Source: Romanomermis culicivorax (Eukaryota; Nematoda; Enoplea; Mermithida; Mermithidae). Taken from it: 64,000 nucleotides of DNA. Position numbers and translations under genes: made by a program. This document shows positions 7,020 to 53,100 of this stretch, in pieces. The notes under the pieces are model-generated. The model was given only the letters and a program-made list of their open reading frames with translations, ran no database searches and was not told the origin of the DNA. The DNA is taken from contig CAWUHX010000282.1 in assembly GCA_963922205.1 (NCBI GenBank), positions 388,607 to 452,606 of the forward strand. The letters are read 5' to 3'. Positions within the stretch are counted from its first letter, which is position 1. Each line of letters opens with the position of its first letter.

Positions 7020-7420
7020 TGATCAAGGAATGACAATCTTGTTGGACCCGCCTGAAGGATGTTATCCAACTTCTGAAGGATGTTATCCAACCGGTGGTAG
7101 CCATTAACATCATTCTGATCACCGTAGGGTTTTAGTGACCTAAGAATGGAGGCTAGTTTGGGATCCTCAAATTGAGCTGGGAGAAGGTCATGGTGGTGTG
7201 CATCCTGTGATATCTCAGCATAAGACTCTGACCTCCCCAGGCGCTGCGCACCATCAGTGGTCATTTGAGATGATCTCGCCAGGTGCTGCGCACCATCAGA
7301 GATCATCATAATTCCTCCCTCCGGTCTGTATAGGGGAGTATCATTGATACTCTCCTCGGCAAGCGAATTAGGATCAGACAGGCGTGATAATGCGCCAGCA
7401 TTACCATTAGACCGACCTTT
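7020..7420 (-). other. Connection between RNase H and integrase, element 1
   Basis: An open frame at 7309-6938 covers much of this segment and runs into integrase. A GAAGGATGTTATCCAAC word is directly repeated at about 7053 and 7076, and a TCGCCAGG.GCTGCGCACCATCA word twice near 7240-7300, so the region has small local duplications. Confidence 0.45.
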
Positions 7421-10470: not shown

Positions 10471-12288
10471 ATCATTCTGCATGTAATGAAAACCGACCCA
10501 ACATTGAACTTTCCAGAGGAGGTTCAACGGAGAGCATTGGCTAACAAACTGAACCTGTCTTTTCCGCAGGCAGTAGCTGAGATAATAAGAGAACCCAACA
10601 TAGATGTGATATCCTGTACCAGCCAGCACTGCCATGGTGATGAGGGTGTTAAAGATCAACTGCACCGGTCCACTCAGAAGAGACTGTAAGCCCTGTATGA
10701 GATTGTGCTGTTGACCAGTAATCACCTGGTTTGCTGCCAGACCAACACCTTCCAGCGAGGCCTTGATGTCAGTTCCTACCCCTGCAACTGCCTGATAAAG
10801 AGAATCTGGTTGTAGGGATAGACCAGTGGTAAAGTTTACCAACCAGTTTAAGACTGCTTCAATTTGCTCAGTCCTGTAAACGTATTGTTTAAAGAAAGCA
10901 AAACCCAAAGGGGTCATCACTAACTGATTGTGAAAGAGCGCATGAGCATCAAAATGAGTGACGTTGAAGCGCTGTTTCCAGAAAAGTTCCAGCCCAATGT
11001 GGCTCACATGGATTGTGCCAGACTCAGTAAACCAGCCCGAGTGATTTTGGAAAATCCTTGTGAAGTGATGGTCACACGGCACTTTTGGGCTAAATCTAAT
11101 GAGATCTGGGCCACCGGGGGTGGCAAAGTAAATGGTACCACCAACCTGTATGGGTAGATACTTGTAACAGGTGTCCCCCACCCAGTACGAATGGTAGACA
11201 TAAGTGGCGTTGACCTTTTGACAGGGCCATATCATTAGTGCTTCACCCGTGAATTCTGCCATCAGGTCATTCCTTTGCAGAAATGCCCGAGCTCCTTGTG
11301 TAGGGTCAAAACGAAGCAACTGCCAAGTCAGATCAAGGTAGCATTGAGCATGAGCGCAAAGCTCAAGCCACATGAACTAAAAATTGTTAATTTCCGATTC
11401 TTTGATCTGCAGAGCCAGGTAGTTCAGTTTGGCATTGACGGGGTCAGGATGTGAGCCCTTTGCCAATCGGAACAACCTTTGGGTCATATTAAATCTTCCA
11501 TGGATGTGTAGAAGAAGACCCTGAACTGTCCGTACTGTGTTTAACCGGAGGTCGGGGCACAACCGGAAAACGCGAGAGTTTCCCAGGATCTTTAGGGCAA
11601 CCTGCAAATCATCGATGATGATATGGTTCCCTGACACAGACGCAGTGTAATTGCCCTGAGGACGATAATGGCACTGTGCTGTAAAGTTTTTTGCAGGCCA
11701 AACGATTACCCCGTCCAGAGTAGTACATTGACCTGCAGTGGGACTGCATCCACCTACATCTCCTAAGGTGCTTAGAGCTGTAGTGCGATCCCACGAAGCG
11801 ACCTGTCCCTCCTCAATGAAGAGGTTAGTCACTGTCTTGCAGACGTCACTGCTGCACCATGAGTACATCTGGTCCAGTGTTTGATTAGTGCTATAAAAGC
11901 AAAGGCCTATTTCCACAAGCTTTTGTAAACCAAACACCTTATTGTAATGTGCTAGCGTACAAGCTGCAGGTGCTAGATGCTGAGTGGTAATGACGTCTGC
12001 AGTAATGCCCCTAGATCCGAAAAAACCAGTGTTGGTGCACACCCTACGGTTTTGCAAAGTGCACTTCCATGCTAAAGTAGTGATTGGATTGGAACTAGGA
12101 ACATACACTCTAATATTCATGCGCCAATCACTCCATGAAGATTTTGGTGGCTTACATTCAACTTTTTGAGGTAGCTCAAGTGGATGACTGCTTCTTGAAG
12201 GACGGCAAAATTGGTACTGAGTAGCATGTGTTGCAGAGCTGATTCCTAAGAACAGTAGTGTCACCAAGGCCCAATTTATTACGTACAA
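10471..12288 (-). pseudogene. Element 1 env-like glycoprotein
   Basis: A membrane glycoprotein-like region placed between gag and protease. The N-terminal frame 12288-11377 begins with a hydrophobic signal-peptide-like stretch (about residues 4-20). Its ectodomain is cysteine-rich with several N-x-S/T sites. An in-frame TAG at 11377-11379 splits it from the continuation, which starts at 11373 in the same frame. The continuation has a conserved GWF-type segment and a transmembrane segment near residues 237-260, with a basic cytoplasmic start (CLRKRQ). Cysteine spacing, the FFGS motif and the (E)LC...W..L...P..GARA block recall class III glycoproteins of mononegavirus or chuvirus type. That is pattern memory, not an alignment. 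Confidence 0.65.
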
Positions 12289-12352
12289 GCTATTTAGAAA
12301 TGGTGCTCATAGATGTACACCAATATGTACAGTGTTCACCCGTCGGGTAGTT

Positions 12353-13221
12353 TCATTCTTTTTTGTCGTTATCAGACGATACCGGCTCCTCGTCAGGGGA
12401 GTCAATGACCAAACCCCTGCAGGGGTGAACTTCGCGAAGAACGCCAATCTTCGGGGACCACTGGGCGGTTGACATTGGGAATGGCAAGGCCTCGATGATG
12501 CTGACATCCTCGTTGATGGCGCGCAATGTCTCTCCAAAGGCATTGGCAACTGTGGGTGGCGGTTTCGGGGTGGCCACTGGTTGCTGCTGGTCAATCACCA
12601 CCAGTGTTTGGGCTCCTGTCATCATCATTGACGGTAACGGGGCAACAACTGCTGCTGGCTGCATGTTGCGGCTCGCCTGTTCCACAGGGCGGTGGACGGC
12701 GTACACTGCCAGCGATGATGGTTCACCATCCAACAGGATCTTGTCCACCAGGGTGGCCTGAATAGTTCTGTTGGCGATAAACTTGAGTGCTTGTCGAGCA
12801 ACATCGGGCCCCAATATCTGCAGCGCCGCTGGCGCCGATAGCACCACGTTGGCAGTGGTAAGCGCCTCAACCTCGAATGGCTCATTGAGTAGCACCCATG
12901 GGAGGTGCGGATACTTTTTGGCCAAATCTGTTGACCAAACGGCCCACATCCCATCAGTGACAGATGAGGAATCTGTAAATGAGAAATCATTAAAGCCGGT
13001 GACTTATAAGGATATCTGATTTTCAGACCTGAAATGTCAGGAAAAGAAGGTAGTATACCCAGCAGATTCATCGATTCCAATTGACTGATGACCTCCAATG
13101 CAGAGTCCGTAGGAATTCGGGGCGGCAGTCCTTGGGCAATAAAACGGGATGGAGGTGCCAGTGTACTTTCCGTCGGTCGATACGACATGACCATGCTGAC
13201 GTCGCCAGTCGTTTTCGGCAT
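12353..13221 (-). pseudogene. Element 1 unknown ORF X between gag and env
   Basis: Not recognised. One frame runs 13221 to about 12960 and continues after a frame change as 12949-12353, which ends in an acidic tail (DEEPVSSDNDKKE). Together they cover about 280 codons. The second part is Ala/Val/Pro-rich and has no cysteine cluster, membrane segment or catalytic motif I know. It lies where element 2 carries its own unrelated-looking 204-residue segment, so an extra domain between gag and env may belong to this lineage. Confidence 0.5.
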
Positions 13222-13269
13222 TGTTGATGGGTTTACATTGACCAGCGTCGTGTATTTCGGTGGCGGCGG

Positions 13270-14135
13270 CTAGGCCAACAAGGGAGTTGGTGCTGAAACC
13301 ACTGCGGCAGCTGAAAACCCAATACTGATTACACAGACAGGATAACACAATTGTGAATGATCCACCAGGTGTTCAGCCAGAACTTCATCATCCAGATCAA
13401 ACAGATCTAGGTGAGGAAGACTGTCGGTAGCCCTTACAGCATTGTTTTGCCACGGGGGTGGCTGATATTGGTTCCCTGTCACATGAGGAGGTGGATTAGC
13501 ATATCCCTAAAAATTCCCACTTGCCCTCTGAGGAGAGTAACCAGAATTACCAAAGTTAGTCTCACCAGGCATTGTCGGAGTTGGATGTGGGCAGGCCCTG
13601 GCCCTGTGCATTCGTATTAGTCCATCGGGTGCGCCCTTGTTTGACAAAAATAGCAACGGCTGGTGCCGGTGGCGATGGTGTTGCTAGGGCCAGTGTAGTC
13701 GGGATGTTGGGCCCCGCAACTAGCCTCGTTGTGGGTGCAGCCTCCAGGGTAGGAGCACATCTGTAAATGTGCCCCCGATGGGAGATTGCCAGCGTTTTGG
13801 ATGGGCCCAATGGCGTCGTTGACGGCATCGGGTTTCTCATAGGCGGCGCTGTTGGCTGAGCCACAAAGTGCACAATGTGAGCCATGAGCCATGAGCCTGG
13901 CCATATCCGATTGTAAACGTTGAATCTCGTCGGACGGCGTTGCCTACGGAGGTTGAGTGGTGCCCCTTTGATTCGACATTGACCTGATGTTGTTGGCGGT
14001 CCTTTGTTCTAAAGAGAAAACAGCATTAGATGGGGCAGTATACCTAATCTCATCCTGAAAAATCTGTGATTCTGCGTAACAAGCTGCTTTGAGAGTTTCT
14101 TGAAGAGTTGTAAACTCCCTGAACTTAATACTATC
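13270..14135 (-). pseudogene. Element 1 Gag C-terminal region, degraded
   Basis: Fragments in several frames continue from Gag. A Cys/His-containing stretch at 13904-13617 (HCALCG, then CYFCQTRAH) may be the remains of zinc knuckles for RNA binding. A proline-rich piece lies at 13482-13270. Frame changes at about 14136 and 13617 prevent a continuous reading. Confidence 0.5.
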
Positions 14136-14917
14136 TCAGAGCACTGGTTTCAACCCTTGCAGAAAGATAGGTTTTATAATCGAACCTCTAATGTCAGTCA
14201 CAATATCTGGATAAGCCACCCTGGACAGTTTCTTAAGGTGCTCAAGGTAGACTATTGCAGACTCAGTTGGCTTCTGCAGACAATCTTGGATCAACTGCTG
14301 ATGCAGATCTGAATCACATCCTACAGGAAAGTCTTTCCTTAGAAAAGTGGTGAACTCTTCGTAGTGGGTAGGCTGTGGAGTACGACTGCTAAAGTCCCGG
14401 TAGGATGCAAGAGCAGGACCTGTTAGGCAAGACTCCAGAAACGTGATTTTATATGCATGATCCGTTTCTGTTACCCCTTGAAGTGTAAAGGAACGGGTCA
14501 AGTGAGATATAAAATCTGTTATAGACTCACCAAAAGCACCCGAAAAGGCAGGAGGGGCCATGAAGCTGGACACAGGAGGGTGCCTTCTGCCATTCATAGC
14601 CTCCAGCTTCTGGTTGAGCAGTCCAAGTGCATTCTCAAATGCTGCTTGGACCTTATTCTCAATCTGTGAAAGTAGATCAATTTCTGACTTCATAGTTGAG
14701 GGTTCCTCTTCCTGTAATGTGGCTAAGACTGATAATTGTGCCTGTGAAGCTATTCGATCAAACTGAATAGAGAGAGGCTCACTGGTCTTTTTAAAACTAG
14801 AACTGAGATGGCAGGAACGTCTAGGTGTCTCTTTTTTGTGAAAATCAGGTATGTATTACTCTTGTGGTCTGGCGGCGAAGAGGCGCAGGAATTACGAGAT
14901 CGTTTACGCAAAGGCAT
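14136..14917 (-). pseudogene. Element 1 Gag (retrotransposon capsid)
   Basis: The 185-residue frame 14693-14136 has a Retrotrans_gag-type core: FSGAFGESITDFISHL, a YKITFLESCLTGPALASY region and a FLRKDF..QQLIQDCLQ helix. These build the capsid shell. The same frame is open upstream to about 14860. An ATG at 14917 opens a basic N-terminus (MPLRKRSRN) in a different frame, so one frame change separates the likely start from the core. Gag ends at a stop at 14136 with coding-like sequence continuing beyond. Confidence 0.75.
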
Positions 14918-16699
14918 TTTTGAGGCTTTAACAGTTGTTCTTTACAATAACTAGCAACCACTCAACAATGGGGCTAGAAAAGAACAAAGTTTTAGCCCTC
15001 AGAACAGCCAGAGAGATAGGCTAACTCAGAAGGGAATTTATTCTGTTGCCTATGTACTTAAAGAGGGGATAACCAGTGTGTAAAGAGAGGGAAATTATAC
15101 GTCCCAAACTTTAGTGAAAAAAATGGGGCTAGACCTGGTTATTTTAAACCAAAAGTGAATAAATTTTAAATGAAATGGTGGTTTCCCAACTGAAAAGAGG
15201 GACGACAGAAGGACTCATGAGTACGGATAAACCCACCCAAAAGGGACTTTTATTTGGAGGTCAAGTCCGTTGTGCTAGTTTACAAAACCTTGGATTCGGG
15301 AGAGCTCCTAACCGACAAAGTCCTACTCACCAGGAGTAGCGCGTGAAATAGCATAAGAATTAATAAGTAAAGGGGCACAACTTAAACCTAACTTAGTGGG
15401 TGTAAATAGATAGGGACAAAACTAGTTTACACACCAGAATATGCAAAGGGGATGCGCTATTACGCAATCAGCCTCGCTCACTGGGAGCAATTGCGATCTC
15501 TGAAAAGTGTGATGACTAGACAGGAGGTTCCCAAGGGGACGACATTCGCATGTATTCTACAACCATGCCCAAAATGGGAATGCACGTTTTGAACAGAACG
15601 GGAGCTCTCCAGGAGCAGTATATAGGGCTGGTGGCCGGGATTCCAGTCACTGAGATGAAGTGAGGCTCACTATGTCACGAGTTGAGGCAAGAGCACCAGG
15701 TACCAAGGTGCTATTCCAACACACTCAGTCAGTAAATGGGTGGCATGGGGGTCCTTGGCCCAGCTGTGCCTAATAGGGGTGGGGATATGCAGGCTTCCTC
15801 CTATGATTTGAGGCACAGCTCAAAGCATCTTGAGATCAGGGGTACAGTCTGTCTCGATTAAATGAGTGTAAAGTGGGGAGCTAAGGTGGACTCATTTGTA
15901 ATGTGTTTAGGCGGACTCGAACACCTCGGCTTAGGCAGACTAGCGGCATATTATGCTATATGGACAACCAATGGAGGCGGACTCAGAATTAATGGGGGAC
16001 TCTATGGCGGACATTATTAGGCCAGCTAACGAAGGCGTTTGAGTGTAAAGAATAATTACAGAGGGGCCTTTTACACTTTAGGCCTAAGCAGTGGCTGTGC
16101 CATAATTCCTGAGGAATTATTCTGGTGGGGACACTGAAGAAGATCATCCATGAGAAAGAAATGCGAGAAATTAGAAAGGAAATTTACAGGAAGGTTGTCA
16201 ACCCTTGTGGTTGTTAGACACAGGCAGTACTACTGCAAATGCGTAACTGTTGCGTAAGTTGAACAACTGACCCAGCTGAGGCCGAGTGTAAACCCGTTCA
16301 AACCTGCAGTTAAAGCTTTAAAGGTGGTCACGCACTGATCAATCAGTGCTGCTACCGGGGGACAACCTAATCAGTATCACGGACCAAGTGCATCTCAGGC
16401 TGAGTGAGCATGTCAACTGATGTTTCCCAGGCATCAGTGATACACAGACACAACACTTGGACAAGAGCCGTAGGTGAGGGGGTCATATTCTAGCAATCAC
16501 CTAGGACTCAAGTGGCATCTTGTAAACCCACAGTAACCTGGTGCTGACGTCAAAGGATGTGATATACACCACCACACACTCGGTGCTGACCTCAGGTGAC
16601 TGAGATGTAAGTGCCATAGTCTCATATTGCAGTACACCACATGTACACCAAAGGTAAGAGCCTACGGCCACAGACCCCTTATGGCAACACAGAGCATTG

Positions 16700-17372
16700 C
16701 TGTTGCTGACGCCAGAATAGGACTGTAAAGTCTCAATTCCAATACTGGAATAGAAACATTATCACTGCGGACATCAGTAGGTAGGGCCTTAAGGCCAGCA
16801 ACCCTGCTATGGCAACACAGAGCATCGCTGTTGCTGACGTCAAAAAGTACTAGCTGAGTTTCAGCTACCCTACAACAATGATAAGAGATGCAGTTGTTGC
16901 AGACATCAGATGTGTGGTTTGTAAGGCCTCACATCCCCGAACAACAACATGGAGCATTGTTGTTTCTGACGTCAAAGACTGGAACCAGTATACCCGACCA
17001 GTCCTAGTGCAACACACGAACCTCTGCTGTTGCAGATGTCAGAGAGATGATGCTGTACAGTCACCATCCCGCAATAACAACATGTCACATTGCCATTGCT
17101 GACGTCAGAGGTAGAGCCAGAGGGCCACCCACCCCCTAAAGCAACAGCAAGAGATGCAGCTGTTGCAGATGCAGGGGGAGGATACAGAGAACCAGCAACC
17201 CCTGAGCGGCTACATGCTATGCAGCCATTGCTGACGTCAGATGCATGACCCAGACAGTCACGCCTAAACACAACAGCAGCATGTGAGGTAGTTGCAGGCA
17301 TCAGAGGTAGGGTCCCCAAGACACACCACCTCATAACAACAACACGGTAAGCTGTTGTTGCTGACGTCAGTG
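16700..17372. promoter_or_regulatory. 66-bp tandem array with TGACGTCA sites
   Basis: Eleven units spaced 62-67 bp. The site position in each unit falls at 16707, 16769, 16835, 16901, 16967, 17034, 17100, 17167, 17232, 17296 and 17362. Perfect palindromic TGACGTCA occurs at 16835, 16967, 17100, 17232 and 17362, that is in every second unit, so the true period is about 132 bp. Alternate units carry AGACATCA-like variants. Many units also contain a short stem such as CAACAACA..TGTTGTTG next to the site. TGACGTCA is the CRE recognised by CREB/ATF bZIP proteins. A promoter, enhancer or insulator role is inferred. Confidence 0.75.
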
Positions 17373-18429
17373 GTCACGATCGATAAGATTGTCACCACGT
17401 GCAATTACGTACAGAGACAGAAAAGAAAGAAGACCGTACAGTAGGTGGAAAAATAATAAGAATGCCCTACTGAAGGGTTGCCAACTGTGACATATGTATG
17501 ACCGGTAAAAGAAAAAAAATTTTTTTTTGAATTAAAATGAATGAAGAATGTTTGATTTAGTAGAAAGAAAAAGGGATAAAATTTTAATTTGTTTGTTTAG
17601 AAAGAAGAGAAAGTAGGTTATTAGTTTTTTATTTGATTTGATTTTTGAGATAAGAAAATTTATTGGGTGAAAAAGTTATTATAATGGGTGTCACACATAA
17701 CCTATAGATGACCGAGAAAATAAAAAAGTAAAGTAAATAAAATAAAATTTGAGGCCGAAGAGATAAGCAATGTGATCTGCTAAGTATGGTGTTATATGTG
17801 TCAACAGTATGATTTGGCTTGTTTGGCGGGAAAATGAGCAACTTGGCAAGTGCTCAGTGAAGATAAGAAAAATTTTGAAAAAGTGTGTTGACACAAATAC
17901 TGGACACAGATAACAAATCACAACCACACTTGATGTCCAGAATCAAGAGTGGAAGGGGTACTGTATCTCGTGATCGGAGATCCCGAAACCCTCAGGGGCT
18001 GTAAAACCTCATGGGCTGTGATACGCAAGTACCCGTACCCAGGTATACTGTAGTTAGAGTATGTGCAAATCACAGTCATACTGTAACCAAATAGCCATAC
18101 AGTGGTACAGTAACCTATTGAATCACATGCAGTGGAGGAAGGCCCAATTTAAAGAGAATGGAAAAAGAAAAATGATAAAAAAAAGCTCAGAGGAGATTTA
18201 TGCAGAATACTCTATTTAAACTCGACTCTGGGAAGTTTTGACTCTTGGGGATCAACTCTGGGGAAAAACCTAATGCCAGGGGATTTATCAAAGCTTACCG
18301 GCGGTACAACACACATAAGGCGATGAATTACACACAAGAATCATCAATTTGATCACTGGTTGGGGCTTATCCCGACTGACAGTAATAAAACTCTACTCAA
18401 ACGGGGTGCTGTTTGAGTTGGTGACAAAA

Positions 18430-18660
18430 CTCGAACATAAGGGCCATTTCCGACCTAAGGGCCAGTGTACCTGCTTAAGGGCGTATCTGACTTACATGAG
18501 GGCAAAAGATCATCCTAAGGGTCAGTAGTCCCACTCAGAATGCAAATCAGCAGACCTGAGAGAGGTTTCCCCACTCCAGTGGTGATTCTCATGATTTGAG
18601 AGAGGTTTTTCCACTCAAACCAAAATTTTACCGAATTGAAAGAGGTATCTCCACTCAAAA
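18430..18660. repeat. Two short leader repeat arrays
   Basis: At 18430-18520 a CCTAAGGGCCAG-like word recurs about every 25 bp, four or five times. At 18555-18660 a GAGAGAGGTTT.CCACTC word recurs three times about every 45 bp. Both lie just inside the 5' LTR of element 1. Confidence 0.6.
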
Positions 18661-18703
18661 GGGTAAAGGGTTTGTTCCCAAGAGCTGTGAAGCCAGACTT
18701 AAA

Positions 18704-18725
18704 GGTCGATTTTCCAGCCTCACCA
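18704..18725 (-). promoter_or_regulatory. Element 1 primer-binding site
   Basis: Read on the minus strand, the base after the 5' LTR (ending in ACA) starts TGGTGAGGCTGG. TGG pairs with the CCA end of a tRNA primer, and the site abuts the LTR with no spacer. The tRNA was not identified. Confidence 0.65.
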
Positions 18726-19356
18726 TGTTACATTAAACAAAATAGGAGCCATGTCACATTAACTGAATTGGTGATCAGTGCCATTGATGGGAAAACCATA
18801 TCCCATGAGAAATATGGCCATGACACTGCAAGTGACATGCTGTGACCCCATTGGGTGGCTTGCTAATGTATTCGTTTCCGATTTCCACTGCAGAAGATGC
18901 CTATGGTCACATAGACATTTTCCAGTTCACTACGTTAAGCATTGGGGCGAGTTTTCACTCTCCATGCTTAGCATAGGAACGTCATCTAGTGAGAATTTCC
19001 AACTAGGCGTTTCATATTGTGAAACATCGCTAGTTTTTACTGATAAGAGGTGCACGTTGTGCTCCAATTACAGTGATGAGCTCGGAGAGCTTATGTTTAA
19101 CGGAAATTTTGACTAGCCGGTTACATACCCTAGTCTACGTGGGCAACAAAAAAATAACAAATGGTAACGGAAATAAAAGTGTGAAAATAAAACAGAAACG
19201 AAACACAAAAAGTACACACAGAAATTGCATGTAAAAATTATAAAATCGAAACGTAAAATTAATGCAAGTTACTGTAAAATAAAACGTGACGAGAAACATA
19301 ATGGAAAAATATGATGTGAATCACATGACGCTGGCGAAATTCATCAGCACGTGACA
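18726..19356 (-). repeat. Element 1 5' LTR (short form, 631 bp)
   Basis: For this minus-strand element the right-hand LTR is the 5' LTR and would carry the promoter. It begins TGTTACATTAAAC and ends GCACGTGACA. Substitutions and small indels against the left LTR are numerous, suggesting roughly 5 percent divergence outside the 799-bp gap. Confidence 0.88.
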
Positions 19357-19433
19357 CTAGACTAGATTGAAGATGGTACTCGTTTTTTTTTTAATTTTTG
19401 GGTATATAAGTATTCCATAAGAAACAGACTTTG
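19357..19433. repeat. MITE-1 copy, right part, beyond element 1
   Basis: After the CTAG duplication the sequence resumes MITE-1 (AATTTTTGGGTATATAAGTA, then ATAAGAAACAGACT) where 3907 left off. Confidence 0.65.
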
Positions 19434-38100: not shown

Positions 38101-41100
38101 CAAAGTTCAGAATCAAAAATTTTCCCAATTGCCCGGTACCATTACCAGAACCGTATTTTTCAAAGTAGATTTGCATATTTACCTGGTTTCTTTTTGCATA
38201 TGAGTAACTTGATCCAATGCTTTTCTGTAAGATTTCAAAGCTTCTTCGTATTCTTTTTTCACGAAATAGATGTTACCAATATTGACTCTCAATTTACCTA
38301 AAAGTTGTAATATTTGATGCTGATGAAAGTAGAAAATTCTGAATCATGTTTCAGACACTAGTCTGATCACATAATCTCTTGGTTGCAGCCAGTTTTTTCA
38401 AAGTTCAATTCAAATTTGGATCATACGAAAATACTGCATGGATTGCAGAATTTTTTTAGCACGTGGATTCCGTCCACTTGAATAGATTCGGATAAATTCC
38501 AAGTTTTTTCCCTTTTTGGTTTATTTTGCTTTCTTAGGATTCTCCCCTAGCAGCCTCACTACTGCAATTAGAGCAATAAAGCATCTATCGACGCGAAAAT
38601 TCACAGTCCGTTCAACTTCTATATCAAGTAAACGATTCTGTGATCGAAAATTTCAGTCAACTAGACTGTCCGAAAAATTGGTTGCTAAAAACACTTATAA
38701 CACTTTATACAGCCCAACTGCAGTATTCGTATCTTGTTGTTCCTCAGACCCACTCTAGTTCTCCCTCTGTGTTTTCATACAAATAGCTACATTATACCTT
38801 AGTTGTACTCCAATTTTGCTCCAGTAAACTATTGCTTTTTCCAAAGAAAATTGAACAATCTAAACAGCAAACATGACCAAATAAGTTTTTTGCAGATAAC
38901 TTTCAGTTGAAAGTTTATTTATAAGTAGAGCTGTCAATTCTTAAGATAATCAATGAAAACTAGAAAATGCAATAATATATCAATAAACCCCGCCTCTGTA
39001 TGAGGATTTCAAAGAGAAACGACCTTCTGATATTATGATACTACAGCAGCGTTTTTTTGTGCACGGACATTTGTGCCAATTGGCACAAGAGGCCAAAAAA
39101 AATTTTCCTACTAGAAACATATACTGAAAACTGTGGAAAGATTTTAGGCCAAATGTTTGATAAAAACATAAATTAGAGCTAAGTTTAACTGCATTATATT
39201 TTTCTAAAAATCTTGCGTAGCCTAACCTATTTTTCAGCTAATTGTAAGGTTTGTCAATTTTTAGGTCAATGGAAAATACAGGTTACTGTAGCTGAATAAC
39301 CTGCAGATCGGACTGAATACTAAACGTTTTTGAGTTATTCTATCTTCTTCAGAATCGTCAACGAAAACGTCAACGGATGGGCGGCAACGGCGACGATTAG
39401 GAAAACGCCAAGGTAATTTTAAAAGGAAAATCTTAGTCTCTAACGAAATTATGTTTCTTCCAGCTTCCAATGGTTGCAAAAGCCGGATGGAACAATCGAC
39501 GTTTTATCCAGCGACCCTACGATGATGGTGAAGAGCAGAGAAAGCAGATAAGCCAAATTTATTAATAAAATAGTGAAGTGATTTTAACATACAAAACAAG
39601 CGTTTATATACAAAGAAAAAGACATAAAAAAAGACATAAAAACTAAGTATTAACGTCATAGTTTCATATAATGTTAGATCATAATCTTAATAAGCATAGT
39701 CGTATAAAAATAAAAAAGTTAGGTGACGTAAACGAAGAATCTTGGCACAATGTCTACAGTAGGATTGGATAATGTAGGTTTGCCTGACATAAGCCCGACG
39801 GTGAAGGTATCGCCGTTTACTGTAGGTTGCTCAACGGCAATCATTATTGATTGATTGGCGGCACTCCCACATTCTTCCGGCGCTGATGAAAAGGCTGTCC
39901 CCAGCCTCGTTTGACAAGATTTGGATGGCGAATCGGCGGCGAAATCGAGGGCGGATTTTTTGGGTAAGTGTTTTTATTGCGATAAACAAAAATTTGTTCT
40001 CTCTTTTTCCTCCAATCCTCAAATTTTTTCGTTATAATTTTCTTCGCTCTTTTTTTTGTGTCTTCCATTTTCTCCAACTTTATGTTCTGGTTTTTCTTTA
40101 TGATTTTCCCTGTTCTGTTTTATAATGTTCCCATTTCCCATAGATTTAAATTTTACGAATTTGGAAATAACCAAAAATTAAGACGGTGTGTTCGGTTGTG
40201 TTTTTTTTCATATATATACAACGCAACAAATGGACAAAAATCGACGAAAATTCAACGAAAAAGGACGACGGATGCGACGATATTGCAAAGTTGGCGACAG
40301 TTCAATGACGGAGGCGACGAAAATTTGGAACAAAGCGACGACAGTGAATTAATCGATGGTGACAACGATTTTGAAACGACGATTTGGGGACGAGGACGAC
40401 GAACGATGCGGTTCTCGTAAGTATATTGCAAAATTTTGGCCATTAGGGCATCAATTTTGTTTGGGTAATAACCGGGGGTCGCGTCACAATTGGATTCGTA
40501 AGTGGATGCTTTGATGTTCGACTAATTCTTTGGCGGCGGGCATCATTTCAGTATAATATGGCAGCATATAGCAGACAATGAAAGCGGCCATCGATTCTGT
40601 AAATGGCTCCCGGGGATAAATCGTAGGTAGAGATTGGGTCTGCGGTGAAATGGTTTTAGGCCTCTTTGATGTTGACTTTATCCGCAGATGATGTTGAGGG
40701 AACTTGAGAAGCAACCATAGGGCAACCGCGGGAGTCGGTGCGACTTTGATTAAGCTATTATTAATCGAATCGGGAATATTTGACAATGGAGGCAATTTAC
40801 CTGTGGCGTTTGCCATCATTAAACTGAAAGCTTTCAATCGTGTATTTTGCGTCCATGAGGGTATAACTGATTGCAAGAAAGATTCAGGTGTTAGATTGAT
40901 CAAATAATGTTCATTCGTCGATACATGGGCGTGAGGAGGAATCATTGGGACATTACCTCCTGAGGCATCGCTCATCGATGGCGGCAGTTTTGGTTTGAAA
41001 ATATTCGGCGTTCCGGTTGTTATTTGGACGAATTTTCTGTTTTCTTCGACAACAAATGGGGTGGTTGTTGTAAAGCGTCGCCTAATCGAGAAGTTTTTGA

Positions 41101-44100
41101 ATGTTTTTGACCGGCGATCAATTTTCTATGACTCGCTTAGATTCGTGGGATATGGGAGGCGCAATTTCGCTTAAATTCTTCGTATAACGTTGGGTTCTCT
41201 AGATGAATGGTTGACAACAATAATTTGTCTATTTTAGCCGGCGCCTGAGATTCTTGTTTTATCGGCCGAAAACGATTCTTGTATTGACAGTCAAGTTTGT
41301 AGATGACGAAGTGATCATCGTTCAACAGCTATCGTCGTCGTAATTTTCGCGAAAGGCATATCTTCAGATGTAGAAATTAGTTAATAACGGAGTATAAATG
41401 AATACACAAATAACAATTTACCGAAAAAGAATATATAGAAAAATACTTTGATGAAAGAATATAAAAATATTTAAGCGGCGGAGTACACAACTGAATAAAA
41501 GAATAAAAATGAGCCTCCTCAATAACTTATATAGAAAGATAATATGTGTTATATACAAGTATTTATCTATTTTGTTTTTCTTTCTTCACATGGACAAACA
41601 TGTAGATAAGAGTTCTGGAGACTGGTCTGATGATACGATCAAAGCCTGAGTCATGGACAAATGGTCGTCCATTTTTTTCTTTTTCAACATATTGAAATGT
41701 ATTTTTTCGTGCGGGCGGCTCGGATTTTCTTTCAATTGCAGTAAATAAGTTGGATGTTTCTTTTCAATAATGACGTAGGGTCCTGTCCAGGGAAAAGTAA
41801 ATTTACGTGAGTGTTTTTGCTTCACCACTGGACTATACTTAAAAACTTCTTCTCCTACTGTGAATTCTTCTCCATGTTCCTTTTTTATCGTATGCAATTT
41901 TCTGAGCGTTCTGTGCAATTTTTATGTTTTCTTTGGCAGATTGCCAGGCGTCGGACAAAAGATGCTGGATGTTGTCGCCAAAGTCGTCAACGTCGATTCG
42001 ATAGAAAGCCGGCGAGAAATGAAGAGCGGCGTCAATCGGCAGATTTGGATGGCGGCCAAAAAGAAGAAAAAATGGTGAGTATTTCCTTGACTTCTGTGTG
42101 GCCGTGTTGTAGGCAAAACACGCATAAGGCAAATAGGAATCCCAATCGTTGTGTTTTTTATTGATGTACATCGAGATAATTGTAGCCAACGTTTTATTGA
42201 ATCTCTCCACTAGTCCGTCTGTTTGTGGGTGGTAGGGACTCATGTTTATTTTTCTTGTTGCACATATTTCACAAATGCGTAACATTAGATCAGATAAGAA
42301 ATTCGTTCCTCTATCTGAAAGTAACGTTAGTGGCGCACCAAAATGTAGCACTATTTCCGTCATAAAGGCTTGTGAAACTTTTTCTGTCCTAGTTTCTGGT
42401 AGAGCTACGGCCGTCACATACTTCATTAAATATTCACTGAACACAATGACGTATTTATTTCCATTTTCGCTCATAGGCAAAGGACCTAAAATATCCATAG
42501 CCACTCTGTCAAATGGACCTGTGACTGGTATAGGCAATAGGGCGGCGCAATTTCTTTTTGTGGATGTTTTTCTCATACTGCAACTGATACAATTTAAGCA
42601 ATGTTCTCGTACGTCGCGGTATACTGTAGGCCAGTGGTAGCGTAGGCGAATTTTTCGTAAAACCAAAGTGTCCAGAAAAAACGTCATCATGACAGGCTTC
42701 TAAAATTTCTTCTTTTTTCGAAACTGGAACTTCTAATTTCAATTCGTTTTCATCTGCATCGCCCAAATAATACAAGATTTCGTCTTTTATTGTAAATTGG
42801 GATGCCAGTGAAACAATTTTCTTGGCTTGCTTAAGATCTTCAGGCAGGTAGTCAGGCTGTAAATAAGCTAATAGTTGACTACAAAATTGATCACTTCTTT
42901 GTGCTTTACGAAAGTTGTTTATATTACTCGCGTTGAACTCGTTTTCTTCCTTTTCCGTGACTATAGTTCGAGTTTTCTCGAAAGTAGTTCTTTCTATAGT
43001 TGGAAATTCTTCAAAATTCGCGTCTTCTTGAATTGGAAAGAAGTTATCAGGCACTTTCGAGCGTGTAGTTTGAGTTTCATCTAGACTAGTTCTTGCTATA
43101 GTCGATGTTTTTTCGGAACCTGCTTCTGCTATAACGGAGATTGAGTCTTTTGTCCTATTTTTACAAGTTTGTGAGCGCGTAATCGCGTTTATGTGAAATT
43201 TTACGCCTTTCTTGTCGTTTTCTCCACATACTGGATTTCTTGAAAGAGCATCTGCATTTTTGTTGATTTTTCCAGTGCGATGTTTGATGTTAAGTTCTTG
43301 AAATTCTTGCAATGCTAGTCCCCATCTAGCTATACGACCGGAAGGGTTTGGTTTTGAAAAAACGCTTTGTAAGGCTGAATGGTCCGTGAAAACAGTGACG
43401 CGCTGCTGATATAGATAGTGACGAAAATATTTTACTGCCCAAACTACGGCTAGAGCTTCCTGTTCCATAATTGCGTAGTTCTTTTCTGCTTTTGTCAAAC
43501 TTCTGCTGGCATAAGCGATAGGTTTTTCTCCATCTTCTGTTTTTTGAGATAGAACGGCGCCTAATCCCTCATTAGAAGCGTCTGTATATAGGATAAAAGA
43601 TGCATGAAAATTCGGATGGATTAGCAGTGGCGCAGTCGTTAATTTTTCTTTCAACGCGTCAAAAGCTTGTTGGCAGGCGTTCGTCCATTCATATTTCTGA
43701 GCTTTCTTCAGTAGAAAATGTAAGGGATTGGCAATTTTCGCGAAATCTTGTATAAAACGTCTATAATAGCTTGCTAAGCCTAAGAAGATGCGTAGTTGAT
43801 CAATATTCCTTGGTGGTGTAAAGTTCTTCACGCTGCTAACTTTGTTTTCGTCTGGTTTTATTCCTTGCGCTGAGATTTCATGTCCTAAGTAAGCAATTTT
43901 CGATTTTAAAAAGTGACATTTTTCCAGGCGAAGTTTTAAACCGGCGGCCTGCAAACGTTGAAAGACTTCGTCCAGCTGCGATTGGTGTTCGTCGAACGTT
44001 CGACCAAAGATCAAAACGTCGTCGAGATAAACAAGGCAAGTCGACCACTGGAGCCCGCTCAAAACGAGGTCCATTAATCGTTGAAAAGTCCCAGGGGCGT

Positions 44101-47100
44101 TGCAAAGACAGAAAGGAACAACGTCGAACTGATAAAGGCCATTATAGGTAATAAATGCTGTTTTTTCTTTATCCTTTTGAGTAACTGGTATCTGCCAATA
44201 GCCCCAAGCTTGATCTAAATTGGAGAATAGAGTAGCTCCTTGAACAGCATCAAAAATATTGTCGATTCTGGGTAATGGATAACTATCTTTTTTGGTAACA
44301 GCATTCAGTTTCCTATAATCGACGCAAAAATGAAATCCTCCCGTCTTCTTGGGCACTAAGACGACTGGGCTGGCCCATGGACTTTGAGACGGAGTGATAA
44401 CTCCTTTGTCCAACATTTTCTGAACTTCTTCATTTATTTGTTCTTTTTGTTTATAGGGTGCTCGATACGGAATTTGTCGAACGGGGACGTTGTCGCCGGT
44501 TTCAATTCAATGTTCGACCAAAGTGGTTCGTCCAAGATCAGTGTCGATGGCGAACAAGGTCGAAAAGCGGGCCAGAAGACCGAAAAATTGGCGACGTTGG
44601 ACATCAGTCAGGTGAGCTTCTTTTATATCACTCTGAAGTTCAGGATTTGCTAACAAAATCTCGGCTTTTTCTTCTTCATTCTTTTCGCAAAAATCTTGAG
44701 ATAAACAAACTTTTTGATGGCAGGATGTTGGTTGATCAGAATACAAATTCTGATAGGCTCAAACTTTTCCAATTTTGATTCCTTGATAGAGGGTGATAGG
44801 GCTTTCCGTAGTGTTGAGAATGCTGACGGGAATAAGTCCATTGTCGGGTTTGACTAAACTAGAGGCAACTTGTAGGTGAAAACGGAGTACAAATTTCGAT
44901 AAAGGTTCAAAAATCAACGAATTCAATCGGGTGTAAGGCATATCTAGCTGGGCATCCACAAAATTAATAGTTCGAGGTAGAATGACTACTGTCCCGGCCA
45001 AGACCACTATTCCTCGGGTGGTATCAGGTAGGAAAATATTCGGATTTTTCATGGGTACTGTGATTGAACCAAAATCGATACAGGCGGCTTTCCAATGTAG
45101 CTCGGTTTTTGCGAATCATCGTAAGAAATCAGTTCCCAATAGCAAATCATAGGTGGAATTCTTGACTACATGTACTCGAAGAAATTCGGGTGGTGACGAC
45201 AAATTTTGCTCCACTGTAAGTGAGATTCTAACCCAACAAGAAGCCGTAACTTCTGCAGTTTGACTATTAAAAACCTTGTAACTTTTAATCATCGGGGGGA
45301 GTATTTGAAATCCTCTTTTTATCGCTAAACTGTAACCAATAAGGGAGATATCTGAACCACTGTCGACTAATGTAGTTATGGGTTCTTCTACATCTTCGTT
45401 CAACCATACATCAATGGTGGGGCATTGATCTTGAGTCAGTTGGGTGCTGAGTCTTATACTACAGTTCGAGGTCGAAGATTCGTCTTTTGATGAAGTTTTG
45501 CGACTTAGCCAAGGCGAAAAAGCCTTCTTCAACATGGTAGAATAAGCTACTTCAGATGATGTGGAATCTGCATGTTCATTTCGGGTTTGTTCTTCATTTC
45601 CTCTTTCCGTTTCTTGCAAATCGGAAAATCGAACAATTGGTTCACGGTCATTCTTTCGGTGGTGGCCAAAACATTTCCCAATCCTTGCTTTGAGGTAATG
45701 ATGAAAAACAAAGTATCCTATCAAGAGTAAAATGATCAGGACTGCTAGGACAACGAGCATATTTAAAATGAGTTGTAGAGGGCCAGAAATCAAATAATCC
45801 CTAGTAGTGACCAAATTCTTCACGCGTGTAGTGCTGATGTGTTCCAACGAGTTAGCAGCTCCTTCCGTGATTTCTGCTACCATCTTCCCTGTACCAGCCA
45901 AAGTCTGATACATCACAGTCGGATCCAACGATAGTTCTGCTGTATATCGTGTGAGTCGGTTCAAAGCGCTCTCAATGATCGAAATTTTGGAAAAATAGCT
46001 TCTCATAAGGCCAAAAGTGTGTAAAACGCCAGCTTGTTGATCGTGAAAATAGGAAGGCGTATTGAAAGTTTGCAATTTAGTTCTGCCTTGCCACTGGATA
46101 CCATAAGGAATCGTTGCAACATGCACTGGGCCAGTAGATGTTCTCCATCCAGTTCCTGTTTCATGATAGATACCAACCACATGGTGATTGCAATCTACGA
46201 CAGGCGATTTTCCAATTACATCCTTCATTCCGGGAACCACAAAAAGTGTGTGATTTTGGAATGAAATTGGCAGATAGGTGTAGCAGGTCTAATTAACTTG
46301 GTAGTCCCAAAATATATGATCTGGTACGATTCTTTCGCATTCCCAAACCATGAGAGCTTGACCGGCAAAGGAGGCGATAATATCGTTTTGCATGAGTAAG
46401 GCTCTGGCTCCTAGAGTCGGATTGAGTTTCAAAAGTTGCCAAATCATCACTAAACATTGTTTTGAAGAATGACATAATTCAGTCCAAATAGTTTGGAAAA
46501 TTCGACTTTCTTGCTCGATCATTTTGTCATATAAAAACTGAAATTTCGAATTCATAGGATCTTTTTCGAGTGATCCAGGGTTGATATTTGATGTTTCTCG
46601 ATTGGCCAAAAGTTGATGAACATCTTCTTCGAACTGCAGAATAGGTCCTTGCTCAGTGGAATAAGGGTTTTGTAAATGACATGTAGAAATAGTCGCGGAG
46701 AGCTGAAAAGCTCCTTGAACTTCTTCCACTATCACATGATCCTGTAGGATATGTCCTGTGAAATTTCCTACTAAGGCCAATGGACAATAATTCTCGAAGG
46801 TGGTGGCATTCCAAATGATCGTTCCTCCAGCGTTCAAACACTGTCCAGCAACGGGAGGGCAACCACCAGTGTCTCCAAGATCACTAATAGTTACTTTGTG
46901 ATCAACAGCTGCTATCGTCCCAACTTCCATGAGTAAATTCTGGACTGATTGACAAGTATCTTTGCAGCACCACTTGAATTCTACTTGCAACGTCTGATTT
47001 GTGGTCCAAATTCCAGGTTGAATTTCTGCTAAATTGCGTCCCATATAGCTTTTATCAGACCAGACTTGTCTGCATAAACCTGGAGTGACAATATTCTGCA

Positions 47101-50100
47101 AAGTGGTGTCGGATACAATTCCTTGGGATCCAAAAACTCCTGTGTTCGTACAAACGGTTTGGTTTCGTAAAACGCAGCGAACGGCTATAATTTGATTCAA
47201 ATGTCCATTCGTGGACCAAACGTGCAACTTTATTTCGCGTTTTTCAGCTTTGATCAGTGGCGGAGGGCGACATTGCGGCATTTTCGGGACCATCAAGGCA
47301 CGACTGCCTCGTGAAGCGCCACATTGGTAGAAAGCTTCGCGGAACAAATAGCCGACAACAAAAGAAAGTAACAACATGGCGGCGAACAAAAAATAAGAAG
47401 AAGTAAGTGAGACTAAATTTCTAAAAATTCGTTGAAAAGTGTTTTGCGGAATTCTTCTTCTATTACGATTTCTGCTTCTTTGAACTGCTTCTGCTCTAAA
47501 TTGAAATTGTAAATCTTCTAGCCTTCTTGGATCCATTCTTGAGTCAGTTTGAGTTGACTGATGTCGCATGGGATCTTCCCGGGAGGTGACTTCGGGCCTC
47601 CAAATGATCCATGGTATCGACTCATTGATTCATCCTTCTGTCGTAAATTCCAAGGGTCCTTGTCTAGCGATCACTCCTCGTCGTGACTGGCTTCCAAATT
47701 CGTGCATATGCATACAATTCAAAATATTACATAAATTACAAATACTGGCTGCAGCAGGCCCATTCAAAATTCTAAAATAAACTTCACCCATGGGGCAGCT
47801 TCCAGAGGGACGGTCGGAATTATAACCTCCAGTCTGAGCTGTATTCATGAAAACATTAACTGATTCAACTCGCCCAGAATTTTCAAATCGCTGACGGCAC
47901 CGTCTATTTTTGTAATAGTCGAAATCAGAAGTTTCATCAAAATCAGAGGTTTCGTCTGAACCATTTTCTAAATAACCATTTTCTAAATGTTCTGGGGCTT
48001 CATTTTCTAAATAATTGCCAGTATACCCATGGGAGGCAATAGTGGGATTATCGCTAATTTCTTCAGATCCTGTCCTACTACTCACCAATGTGGAGTGTCT
48101 GGTTCCAAAATAAAATTCATTATATCGGGCCATACAAATATGTGCCTGAGGCCTCACATTGGAATTTTCAATCGGCAGATCGAAATCATCGCAATTCCAG
48201 GGATCGGACTGTTCTGCGATGGTGTCAGGATTAAATACCGACACGTTGGGCCCATTAGCCTCGGCAAGACAAAGCTGACTATTGACTCCACAGGTTCCAG
48301 AAAGGGCATCTCCTGGACTCCTAGGGTTTGAAACGCCTCAGGCTGGCATTTGCACTCGGGGCGGTCCACCACGCCACGTGCTACGCGGGGAACTCGAAAA
48401 TCTGGAATCTTGATTTCGTTCGAGCATGGGGCAAGTAGAAGAATAATGCCCACTTCTACCACATCTAAAACAAGAAACGGTACCATCTGAGGACCTTCCT
48501 GACGGGCGGCCGCGGTTAAAGTTGGTATTTATCGCGCAATTTGGGCGACCTCCCATCCTGTTGGGCTCTTGGGGACCTTTCGATTGAATCTGAAAATCTC
48601 TCGCGTTGTTCCTAGGCCAAAAACGATTTTCTTGCCGTGGCCATCTATTGAAATTAGTATTTTGATTCATCCTTTGTTCGTGTCTTCTTTCAGGATTCGA
48701 ATTTCCAGCTAGGTTGACAGCACTCAACTGTTGCACTAAATTTGTCAGCTGACTGACAGAATTCGCCAAAACTTGAAACGAAGGGTTATTTTCACTGTGA
48801 TATTGTTTTTCTCGTAATTCTTGTTTTTCAGCTTCAGCAACGGCAGCCCCCAATGAATCTGGTTTGGCGTTTTGAACCCAATGACGAATGTCAGGTATTA
48901 GTCGATTTATGAAATGATTTTTAATAATTATATCAGGTTCTCCGGCTCCGTTCCAGGTTGGAAAAGCTCGTTTGGCTAAATGACGGACGTCAGTGGTGAA
49001 AACGGCGACGGGTTCCCCCAACGTCTGCGTTCTGGCGACTAATTGCTCGTATTTGACGTCGATTTGGCGATTATCGGGAAGCATGGCTAGGTAAGCACCA
49101 GTCCATGCATCCCAGTCAGCCAAAGGTGGTTGTCTTGCTTCTAATTCTCCAAAATAATTGAGTGCAGCGCCTCGTAAATAATTTGCTAGCAGGGCCGTTT
49201 TTCTACTTAGGGCCGTAGCACCTACCAAAATTGCTAATCTCGAAAATTTTCTGTCCCATTCTGACCAGTTTAAATCATTGGGGTCGCCAGCAAATGGGGA
49301 TAGATCGCCTAGACCGGTGGGAATTGTTGGGCGGGTTTCATACAGTTCTGTAACTCGAGCCACTGTATTTCATAACAAATCTTTGATTTATTGCATAGCC
49401 ATTGCATCTCTATTTCCAACTAAAACTTGATCTTCTTGATTCGCCAAAATTTGTAAATTTTCTTCTTCTAAATTTTCTTCTGGTGGTACACATTCAAATA
49501 ATGGTCCTCCACTTCTAGTTCGTCAGTGTTCTGTAGGATTCTGGGGAGCACGGGTGATTACGTTATTAAAAATTGAAAAAAGTGAATTTTCTTCTTCAGC
49601 CGTTCTTCAAGAAAAATCGTCAAGCTTGAAAAATTCGAAAAACGCCAAGTAAGTTGCCAAATAAAATCATCGGCCTTCGTGCTTCTTTATTTCTTCTTTA
49701 TTTTCAGGCTTCTGGAACGTCAAGTCGAATCCGAAGATTGTAGTCGAGGTCCTGCCACGAATCACCACTTGTAAGGTTTGTCAATTTTTAGGTCAATGGA
49801 AAATACAGGTTACTGTAGCTGAATAACCTGCAGATCGGACTGAATACTAAACGTTTTTGAGTTATTCTATCTTCTTCAGAATCATCAACGAAAACGTCAA
49901 TGGATGGGCGGCAACGGCAAAGATTAGGAAAACGCCGAGGTAATTTTAAAAGGAAAATCTTAGTCTCTAACGAAATTATGTTTCTTCCAGCTTCCAATGG
50001 TTGCAAAAGCCGGATGGAACAATGGACGTTTTATCCAGCGACCCTACGATGATGGTGAAGAGCAGAGAAAGCAGGTAAGCCAAATTTATTAATAAAATGA

Positions 50101-53100
50101 TGAAGTGATTTTAACATACAAAACAAGCGTTTATATATAAAGAAAAAGACATAAAAAAAGACATAAAAACTAAGTATTAACGTCATAGTTTCATATAATG
50201 TTAGATCATCTTAATAAGCATAGTCGTATAAAAATAAAAAAGTTAGGTGACGTAAACGAAGAATCTTGGCACGATGTCTACAGTAGGATTGGATAACGTA
50301 GGTTTGCCTGACATAAGCACGACGGTGAAGGTATCGCCGTTTACTGTAGGTTGCTCAATGGCAATCATTATTGATTGATTGGCGGCGCTCCCACATAATC
50401 ATGTCAATGAGATAAGAAAAAAACTGTGCAAGAAAATAGTTCGCGGCGACTCAAAAAGAAATGAAATGCCGAGAAAATTGAGGCTCTAGAATTGATGATC
50501 AAATTGATTCAATTTTCGACTACGAATATCTATATAATATTTAATTACAATGTAAAGATTAGAGGAAATAGTGTGGAAAATTGTGTGAATTTTTGGTCCA
50601 AACATTGCACCAGTGATATCAATTTTCCTGATTGGATTAATCAAACACAGAAAGTAAGAATTTCAGTTTTAAATCTGAATCTCACTGAATGAACAGAGAA
50701 TATTAAGAATTCCTTTTCATTCATCAGTCATTGACAGCGTATGAAGTTTGCTGCAAGAATACTGATACACTGTTCGAGGAGAAATATTTCGCGTTCAGGT
50801 CAAATACACGAGTAAGAAATATTATTATATTGATTGATTCGGCGCGCAGCGCCGAAATTTTTTTGCATTTTTAGTCCTTAAAACGTCTAAAAATCAGGGA
50901 AATTTACTGTTTGATCAGCCAAAAATTTTGTGCCAATTGGCACAAACGCTCAAAATTTTTTGTGCCATTCAAAATTTTTTTGTGCCAAAAACCATGTTTT
51001 GGCACAAAAACAAAAAAACACTGTACTACAGTAGTTTTGCTATAGAATGTAAAAATCAGACCCTAAAATCTGTTTTTCTTGACATGCTTGTAAATATCAA
51101 TATAGTAGAAAGCAACTATTATATTATCATCATTTCCTGCTAAACTATATGTCGTAAAGGATAGGAAATTTGCGAGTCTTCTCCCCATACTATTTTTGAG
51201 TAAAAAATCATGCAGTACTTCGAGGGTGGTACTAACGTATTTCTTGTCATTTTTAAATTTGCGAGCATTTTATATAAAAACAGACTAAATATAAAGGCCC
51301 TGTCATACTTCACCGCGAGGTACCGCCCGGCACCGCGCGGCGCTGGTTGTCCTATTCATACATGCACGTGGGGGGGGGTTGGTTTGGGGGTTTGACCCCC
51401 AGCAGATTTTTATTGACCCCCAGCAGATTATTGCTGACCCCCAGCAGATTTGACTCTCCTAGCAATGATTGAGAAGTTGACGAAGGAAAATGATCAAGAG
51501 AGAAGAGAAAGTCGTCATCAAAATGGAAATGATCCTTTAGTTTAACAATTTTTCTAAACAAAGCATACTTGATTCCAAAAGAGTAACATTAAAACTGTAA
51601 AAAGTGCTGTCTAAGCAAATTATTTAATATATCTGACTAATATAGTTGTGAGAATATGCTGTTTGGATGTTAGAAAACCTTTCTAAGACCTTTCTTTTCA
51701 TTATCAAGAATGAAAAAAATTGTATTCCACCCCCGTCCTGGCTGACCCCCAGCAGAATTTCTATGCTGTGCATGTATGGTCCTATTCATACTAACAAGCG
51801 GCGCCGCGCTGTACCTCGTGGTGGCTTGTCATACCTCGCCGCCCGGTAGTGCGCAGCGCCCTACGACGCCGCATTTTTACTTTTGGATTTTGCTCGTCTC
51901 AAAAAATGTGTATTGCTCGTCTCGACAAATGCAATACACAAAAAATACGAAAAAGATGAAAAATACGAAAAAAATCGAAAAATAAAAAGCGCAAAAGAAA
52001 AAGAAAAATCAATCATTTCTGCGCGGTGCAGATAGAAGCTTGCAAAGAGCATAGTCTAAAGATTTTGGGCTCTTGCCTCAATTTGCTTCTCATTCCAACG
52101 ATTAATAGTCCTTGAACTGCTAAGAAATATCAATTTTATATAAATTGATTCATTCACATATGTGCTATATACAGGATCCAGACCTGATCTGGGTCCGGTC
52201 GGACCTGCTGTTTAGAACCTAGATTCAAAGTGGATCCATCCTATCGCTAGTATTCGGGAAATGGGGACGTTCAGGGAATTGGGACTAATGCATTTTTCGG
52301 GGAAATAGGAAATTTATTCATTATTCGGGGAATCGGGACCTACAGGGAATATCGACTTTCGGACAATCGGGATATTTGCCGAAAAGGGACGTTGGGGGAA
52401 TAAAGACACAATCGAAATGTGCGACCACACTTGCTGTAGGAACATGTTTACACCTACTTTGCATATTCATAATTTTTACACATTAATGTCTTCATTGCAA
52501 ATTGAGTGATCAACTTCTTAGTAAGTCTTCATTGAAAATTTAGTAATCAATTTGGTAAAATAATTTGACAAGTGTCAGAATTCACCATTCAAGTGAAAAA
52601 TATGATTCAACTATATGTATAGATGTCACAGTATGCAACAATATGTTACAGTATGCTGCAACTTTAGAACACATGACTTGTTCGAAAATTTTGGTTTAGT
52701 TGGAATTTGATGTTGGCGCCGCGGTGCGCCGCAAAAATTACAGAAACCTATTCATACTTCAAAGGTGGTACAGTGCGGTACCGCTCGGCACTGCTTTTTA
52801 GTATGGATAGAACAACGGGCACCGCGCAGTACCGCGCGGTGAAGTATGACAGGGCCTTAAGTCTGCACTGATTATTGTAATGCAGCGCTGTCAGGCGCGT
52901 ATTTTTGGACCATCCTATCTTTCATTGCTGTAGATTTTTAAGTGTCTTAAAAAATCATGCAGAAGCAAAAATCCTGGATTCTACTATCACTCTTTTTTAT
53001 CAATTAGTGGATGAACACGCGCATTAAAGTTGATCTATTTTGACCGTGAAAAATGAAGCCGTAGTTACTGAAGTATAGACCCTACAAAGGAAAAATTCGA

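Follow-up and report, generated by a model that had tools for sequence, protein, structure and literature searches.

According to the Metaviridae profile of the International Committee on Taxonomy of Viruses (ICTV), the envelope gene (env) of the env-bearing members of this family lies downstream of integrase (PMC7879559), as in gypsy of Drosophila, an Errantivirus-type element that has the Ty3/Gypsy pol order, long terminal repeats (LTRs) and an env gene after integrase (PMC7879559); Atlas virus of hookworms is likewise reported as Gag-Pol-Env (PMC9094657). Here, we analyzed a stretch of 64,000 nucleotides (nt) from the nematode Romanomermis culicivorax (contig CAWUHX010000282.1, positions 388,607 to 452,606; “the window”, to which all plain coordinates refer), which contains two members of one family of Gypsy-type retroelements, elements 1 and 2. 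On the minus strand of element 2, the open reading frames (ORFs) and their profile matches follow the order gag, a linker (X), env, protease, reverse transcriptase (RT), RNase H and integrase, with integrase alone off-frame, exactly as proposed in the original prediction, which was made from the letters of the window. We confirmed that the placement of env between gag and protease is general among the relatives of element 2 examined in this genome, and profile searches support the identification of the central region as a viral fusion glycoprotein of the Monjiviricetes/glycoprotein B (gB) kind.

The closest described systems each share some of these features. The Env of errantiviruses is likely of baculovirus origin (PMC12440569), whereas the env pieces of the nematode family match the Pfam profiles Monjiviricetes_fusion, gB and BDV_G, not baculovirus-F-like ones. 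Anakin, a mosquito element, has captured a chuvirus glycoprotein, its donor being a negative-strand virus of the same broad group, but belongs to BEL/Pao (PMC7642597), whereas the nematode family is Gypsy. In a later survey of such glycoproteins, the group that described Anakin noted Gypsy fragments next to some of them in insects and a pair of relics in Nematoda, and reported no clear Gypsy capture (PMC10084718). Atlas virus, too, encodes Gag, Pol and Env in one nematode frame (2,828 residues) but, like other nematode belpaoviruses, is reported to combine the Gag-Pol-Env order with a class II phlebovirus-like Env and BEL/Pao affiliation (PMC9094657), unlike the Gypsy family described here. 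Cer1 of Caenorhabditis elegans is also a nematode Gypsy element without a stop between gag and pol; its extra gene follows pol and is described as encoding a factor for RNA export rather than an Env (PMC10309623). Among other elements, Troyka is reported to lack env (PMC12440569), bdelloid elements carry env-like genes as ORF3, downstream of pol (PMC5408684), and MDG1 elements have, ahead of gag, sORF2, which encodes a short fusogen-like protein (PMC11952523). In the open-licence literature, with transposon databases outside the scope, we found no retroelement whose env is placed between gag and protease; an earlier description or an unnamed database entry of such a gene order could exist.

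Element 2 is an LTR insertion at 39243-50395 on the minus strand, with the following features:

50396..50399, no strand: right target site duplication, TAAT (by eye)
49770..50395, minus strand: 5' LTR, TG...CA ends (by eye), 97.1% identity to its partner
49752..49767, minus strand: candidate primer binding site, starting with TGG two bases past the 5' LTR (by eye)
48338..49363, minus strand: gag piece with zinc knuckle (zf-CCHC, 1.9e-4)
47630..48244, minus strand: X, linker between gag and env, fast-evolving, no known domain (Pfam)
46289..47569, minus strand: N-terminal part of the predicted envelope glycoprotein (Monjiviricetes_fusion, 3.4e-8, 32.4 bits, cut-off 27)
47342..47410, minus strand: hydrophobic segment 1, putative internal signal sequence or anchor ahead of the ectodomain, homologous in intact copies (position counted by hand)
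45116..46240, minus strand: C-terminal part of env with the anchor, then aspartic protease (gag-asp_proteas, residues 286-374, E 0.0036, below the cut-off)
45701..45760, minus strand: hydrophobic segment 2, putative C-terminal membrane anchor of env, homologous in intact copies (position counted by hand)
42509..44416, minus strand: RT and RNase H (RVT_1, 4.8e-31; RT_RNaseH, 6.6e-41)
41839..42690, minus strand: integrase zinc-binding and core parts, out of frame in this copy (Integrase_H2C2, 2.1e-7; rve, 3.9e-7)
41586..41918, minus strand: C-terminal part of integrase (weak SH3_Tf2-1, 0.024; 91-94% identity in near copies)
39243..39871, minus strand: 3' LTR, TG...CA ends (by eye), 97.1% identity to its partner
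39239..39242, no strand: left target site duplication, TAAT (by eye)

The pieces from gag through RNase H share a frame, from which the integrase pieces deviate. With six in-frame stops in the shared frame before the RT/RNase H ORF ends, and with integrase off-frame, the window copy must be regarded as decayed; given that integrase is in frame in the 11 open relatives described below, the frame change looks like damage to this copy. Recoding of the stops is not supported, the frame being open there in 11 of the 20 relatives. The two LTRs (39242-39872 and 49769-50396) are 97.1% identical across 631 positions, and the only other repeats in and around the element are short (30-40 nt, 63-74% alike), with the exception, a 37-nt inverted pair, located outside it. 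A pattern search with a single pattern and a guessed T-arm found no tRNA matching the candidate primer site, and known RNA families are absent from the window.

The family belongs with Metaviridae by most features. The order protease, RT, RNase H, integrase is that of Ty3/Gypsy, and the RT is recognized by RVT_1 together with RT_RNaseH or RT_RNaseH_2, one nematode relative being annotated as a transposon 17.6-like Pol of Trichinella. LTRs with TG...CA ends and a duplication of 4-6 bp, as in Metaviridae, are present in element 2 (TAAT), where these were examined. The RT motif is YLDD in all 11 intact frames, at variance with a BEL-type RT, YVDN being the motif given for nematode belpaoviruses (PMC9094657). 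The feature that departs from the ICTV description of env-bearing members is the position of Env, which in this family does not follow integrase.

To place the window copy among its relatives, we searched the R. culicivorax assembly (359,112,060 bases, 595 contigs), a long-read assembly reported to consist of 68.2% repeats (PMC10879605); the UniRef protein P0001 of this species matches the genome at 99% along its full length. The env query gave at least 99 matches (98 of 3,445 first-look candidates scored), gag at least 121 (118 of 2,400), RT at least 89 (69 of 8,995), and a query from the env/protease region of element 1 at least 70 (70 of 3,946); in 13 of the 70 matches listed for the latter, the frame is exactly 3,018 codons. 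As read from the tables of matches, there are at least 56 places where a stop-free match to env, or to env/protease of element 1, lies within a frame that is open over at least 2,400 codons. Gene order was determined in 20 stretches of 10 kb fetched around env hits that span the identity range, with long frames favored, by placing the window pieces with tblastn; the presence of env and of long frames thus partly follows from the choice of loci, whereas the order does not. Gag lies ahead of env in every locus but L024, which lacks a gag match, and env ahead of RT in every locus but L019, which lacks an RT match (19 of the 20 loci each); integrase follows RT in 18 (all but L019 and L025); in these 18 loci with an integrase match, env was not found after integrase within the fetched stretch, so that the arrangement that would have contradicted the original prediction did not turn up. 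In 11 of the 20 loci, from four lineages, gag, env, protease, RT/RNase H and integrase are joined in one uninterrupted frame of 2,461-3,018 codons:

Lineage A (L015, L016, L018): 2,664, 2,662 and 2,665 codons
Lineage B (L020-L022): 2,571, 2,703 and 2,594 codons
Lineage C (L026, L027, L029): 2,461, 2,465 and 2,544 codons
Lineage D (L033, L034): 3,018 and 3,018 codons

An open frame is no proof of a working copy, given that about 130 codons of RT/RNase H are missing in frame from L020. The claim that the glycoprotein sits within a Gag-Pol precursor thus fits the intact relatives, with their 11 open frames, and does not hold for the broken window copy itself.

Two additional loci, chosen via the outside RT protein P0112, represent lineages E (L039) and F (L040). 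In both, env is upstream of protease and RT; gag precedes env in L040, and the fetched stretch ends short of gag in L039. Altogether, none of the 22 loci examined contradicts the order gag-env-protease-RT, the relatives sharing it wherever the pieces were found, and env before protease is common to all six lineages. Among the matches listed, we examined two places that appeared to represent env-less relatives and found none: in one of these, C127, the match to P0112 is unbroken from residue 286, and env is directly upstream in the fetched stretch. The pairs L020/L021 and L022/L023 (env synonymous divergence, dS, 0.003) stay 99.3-99.7% alike as far as the fetched stretches reach and do not allow the conclusion of very recent copying; they may be alleles left in the assembly.

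All seven env representatives, from lineages A-D, match Monjiviricetes_fusion at E up to 0.1, the best match being that of L015 (67.4 bits, 8.5e-19, curated cut-off 27); at the same threshold, Glycoprotein_B is matched by six of the seven and bornavirus G (BDV_G) by five. The region between the membrane segments comprises 518-528 residues with 16 cysteines in all nine intact copies. Env is under purifying selection: the ratio of nonsynonymous to synonymous divergence (dN/dS) is 0.08-0.13 in six lineage C pairs, 0.06 in lineage D and 0.23 in lineage A; in lineage B it is 0.29, with very few changes, and the B2 pair has no amino acid change. Between A and A2, the value is 0.06 with dS near saturation, and every more distant pair is saturated. 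Between lineages A and C, identity increases from gag (28%) through env (36%) to RT (56%). Among the neighboring pieces, the Retrotrans_gag or Ty3_capsid cut-off is passed by five of seven gag pieces of relatives, and gag-asp_proteas is above the cut-off in L026 and L033 and below it in L015 (1.4e-4). X is 81-83% identical to the window copy in three near copies and 33-54% in eight others; in the fetched loci of lineages C and D, tblastn detected no match to it, and it has no Pfam match.

A search for env homologues in 5.8 billion proteins, which detects only relatives of similar length sharing exact 5-residue words, returned five R. culicivorax fragments (E up to 0.001) and no virus protein; with the alignment as the query, it returned two, and scans of viral contigs found no relatives. 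No env match at E up to 1e-3 was found in the 120 outside RT proteins compared, which are of limited length only; one of these, P0112, whose zinc knuckle is at 137 and whose protease-like match spans 232-347, looks conventional in layout.

The env and RT trees of nine copies recover the same groups, A+B, C+D and E+F (the env row of E being partial), and the env and RT distances are correlated (r = 0.93), with identity between lineages reaching down to 46% for RT and 29% for env. Such concordance would be expected if env had been captured once and had then descended jointly with RT. For the RT clade test, ten family rows were combined with P0009, a metagenome RT protein, and 33 other outside RTs, hand-picked from the 115 full-length sequences among the 120. 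A single RT clade of the family without P0009 was rejected (approximately unbiased test, p-AU 2e-8), whereas a clade of the family with P0009 was not (p-AU 0.16); in the free RT tree itself, E+F are not joined to the other lineages.

With Gag, Env and Pol in one frame, the element most likely encodes a single polyprotein. We regard as probable an arrangement in which synthesis of the Gag part would be cytosolic, after which an internal signal sequence would thread the Env ectodomain into the lumen of the endoplasmic reticulum (ER), and the C-terminal anchor would return the chain, leaving protease, RT, RNase H and integrase cytosolic; signal peptidase would then cut on the Gag side of Env and the protease of the element on the Pol side, and Env would let particles pass between cells or hosts. 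Flaviviruses and alphaviruses likewise place capsid, an internal signal sequence and envelope in one chain, which signal peptidase cleaves together with a protease of the virus; these are unrelated RNA viruses, and the likeness is in the working plan, not in membership. The internal signal-anchor and polyprotein topology implied by the original prediction fit the two hydrophobic segments that flank env, the topology itself being a prediction. Segments above the threshold are present on both sides of env in 10 of the 11 intact frames, and a best-segment search located both in all nine copies examined; with an even number of crossings, Gag and Pol would both end up on the cytosolic side. The stretch before the first segment is positive, and the stretch after the second net positive, in nine of nine copies, and in several lineages the alignment shows, by eye, that positions -3 and -1 relative to the conserved ectodomain start are occupied by small residues, which look like a signal peptidase site. 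The distance from the ectodomain back to the nearest in-frame methionine ahead of the first segment is 66-76 codons in A, 36 in B, 121 in B2, 149 in C, 129 in C2 and 97 in D; it differs by lineage, so that there is no common start; in L033, a methionine follows the first segment. The NPGP motif of 2A peptides is absent from the 11 frames.

Several observations weigh against this polyprotein plan. In L029, the first hydrophobic segment is below the threshold and only the second one passes, and L033 and L034 have an additional weak segment in the X region (codons 511-530). The flank before the first segment is more positive than the one after it in only five of nine copies, with three equal and one reversed. 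The number of glycosylation sequons is above the shuffled 95% level in only two of nine copies and equal to it in two, and the evidence for the glycoprotein fold consists of profile matches. In L026, a methionine at the start of the first segment makes a separate start thinkable, one that the close relative L029 lacks. Furthermore, one frame would yield Gag, Env and Pol in equal amounts, which would be unusual, and retroviruses and Cer1 are reported to use spliced mRNAs (PMC10309623), which raises the alternative that splicing serves to express env or to remove it, with one mRNA joining a 5' exon to env and another joining gag to pol without it. We consider this unlikely because the frame is open through both junctions in the 11 loci of four lineages, which a spliced env would not need, and because, in 10 of 10 copies, no splice donor matching at least 8/9 of the general consensus (which may differ in R. 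culicivorax) occurs within the 900 nt ahead of env, and the acceptor-like sites are scattered, none being common between lineages.

The embedded glycoprotein might also have lost its role in entry, with the membrane segments tethering Gag-Pol to the ER or plasma membrane of a purely intracellular element; multiplication within one genome needs no entry. A tether would need only the segments, whereas the whole ectodomain, with its 16 cysteines, is kept at low dN/dS, so that this explanation seems improbable to us. That the central region is a fast-evolving extension of Gag or Pol appears very unlikely: the match of the window copy is modest (3.4e-8), and a search of solved structures by sequence found nothing relevant to env, but each of the seven representatives is recognized by the fusion-protein model (up to 67 bits, cut-off 27), and the gB and bornavirus G matches, the membrane segments and the cysteine pattern point in the same direction. 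Finally, the window copy is decayed, as might be the product of a local rearrangement or a nested insertion; with the order uncontradicted in 22 loci, shared by six lineages and found in intact frames, and with no long repeats around env, such an origin of the layout is extremely improbable, in line with the view taken in the original prediction.

Element 1 is the other family member within the window:

3908..19357, minus strand: element 1, broken, with the same order of pieces (LTR remnants, ORFs, lineage D relatives with 3,018-codon frames)
9496..12288, minus strand: env of element 1, two ORFs with a stop between them, then a protease-like stretch

Its 3' LTR (3908-5338) is apparently split by about 800 bases (4067-4866) that are missing from the partner at 18726-19357. 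For one lineage D copy, a search of the 2-kb flanks found no LTRs. In lineage D, a second aspartic protease-like stretch directly follows the env anchor (L033 4335-4937, corresponding to the C-terminal part of window 9496-11373; E 0.0035, below the cut-off), with a better protease match before RT (5.8e-7). L033 and L034 also contain, off-frame within the 3,018-codon frame and between gag and env, an open run of 219 codons (1862-2518), whose counterpart in element 1 is an ORF at 12949-12353 (68% identical). Another run, of 232 codons, is in the third frame at 724-1419; the longest off-frame runs in eight copies of other lineages are 65-138 codons. The off-frame run of L033 and L034 is possibly an overlapping gene, or a chance occurrence.

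Within element 2, an ORF of 163 amino acids (40484-40975, minus strand), without a Pfam match, lies between integrase and the 3' LTR, and stretches of it are 55-79% identical in three near copies, where it is split into shorter frames. Two intron-like GT...CAG stretches (39397-39472 and 49640-49710, plus strand; by eye), one within an LTR and one just inside the element beside the LTR, are on the strand opposite to its genes. Elsewhere in the window, 995-1412 and 28539-28963 are diverged copies of another repeat, ~90% identical across several blocks, and an inverted repeat at 26903-27884, with 162-nt arms (94% complementary) separated by 658 nt, is perhaps a small DNA transposon.

On balance, we lean towards the broader possibility that these elements represent a whole group of Metaviridae with a membrane-threaded Gag-Env-Pol polyprotein built on a flavivirus-like plan, which would have arisen after a single capture of a class III glycoprotein from a negative-strand virus; some lineages would have multiplied so recently that many frames are still intact and could be infectious nematode retroviruses, and the nested position of P0009 suggests that the group may extend beyond this genome. 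The family provides evidence for Gypsy capture of a Monjiviricetes-type glycoprotein, no clear case of which was reported in one survey (PMC10084718). The family raises the question of how the ratio of Gag, Env and Pol is set, how one chain is sorted across a membrane, and how particles assemble with Env fused to its neighbors. R. culicivorax is a mermithid parasite of mosquito larvae that is used in mosquito control and for which long-read DNA and RNA data are reported (PMC10879605), so that the question is testable. An abundant group with the envelope inside Gag-Pol shows that a second env architecture is workable in env-bearing Metaviridae.

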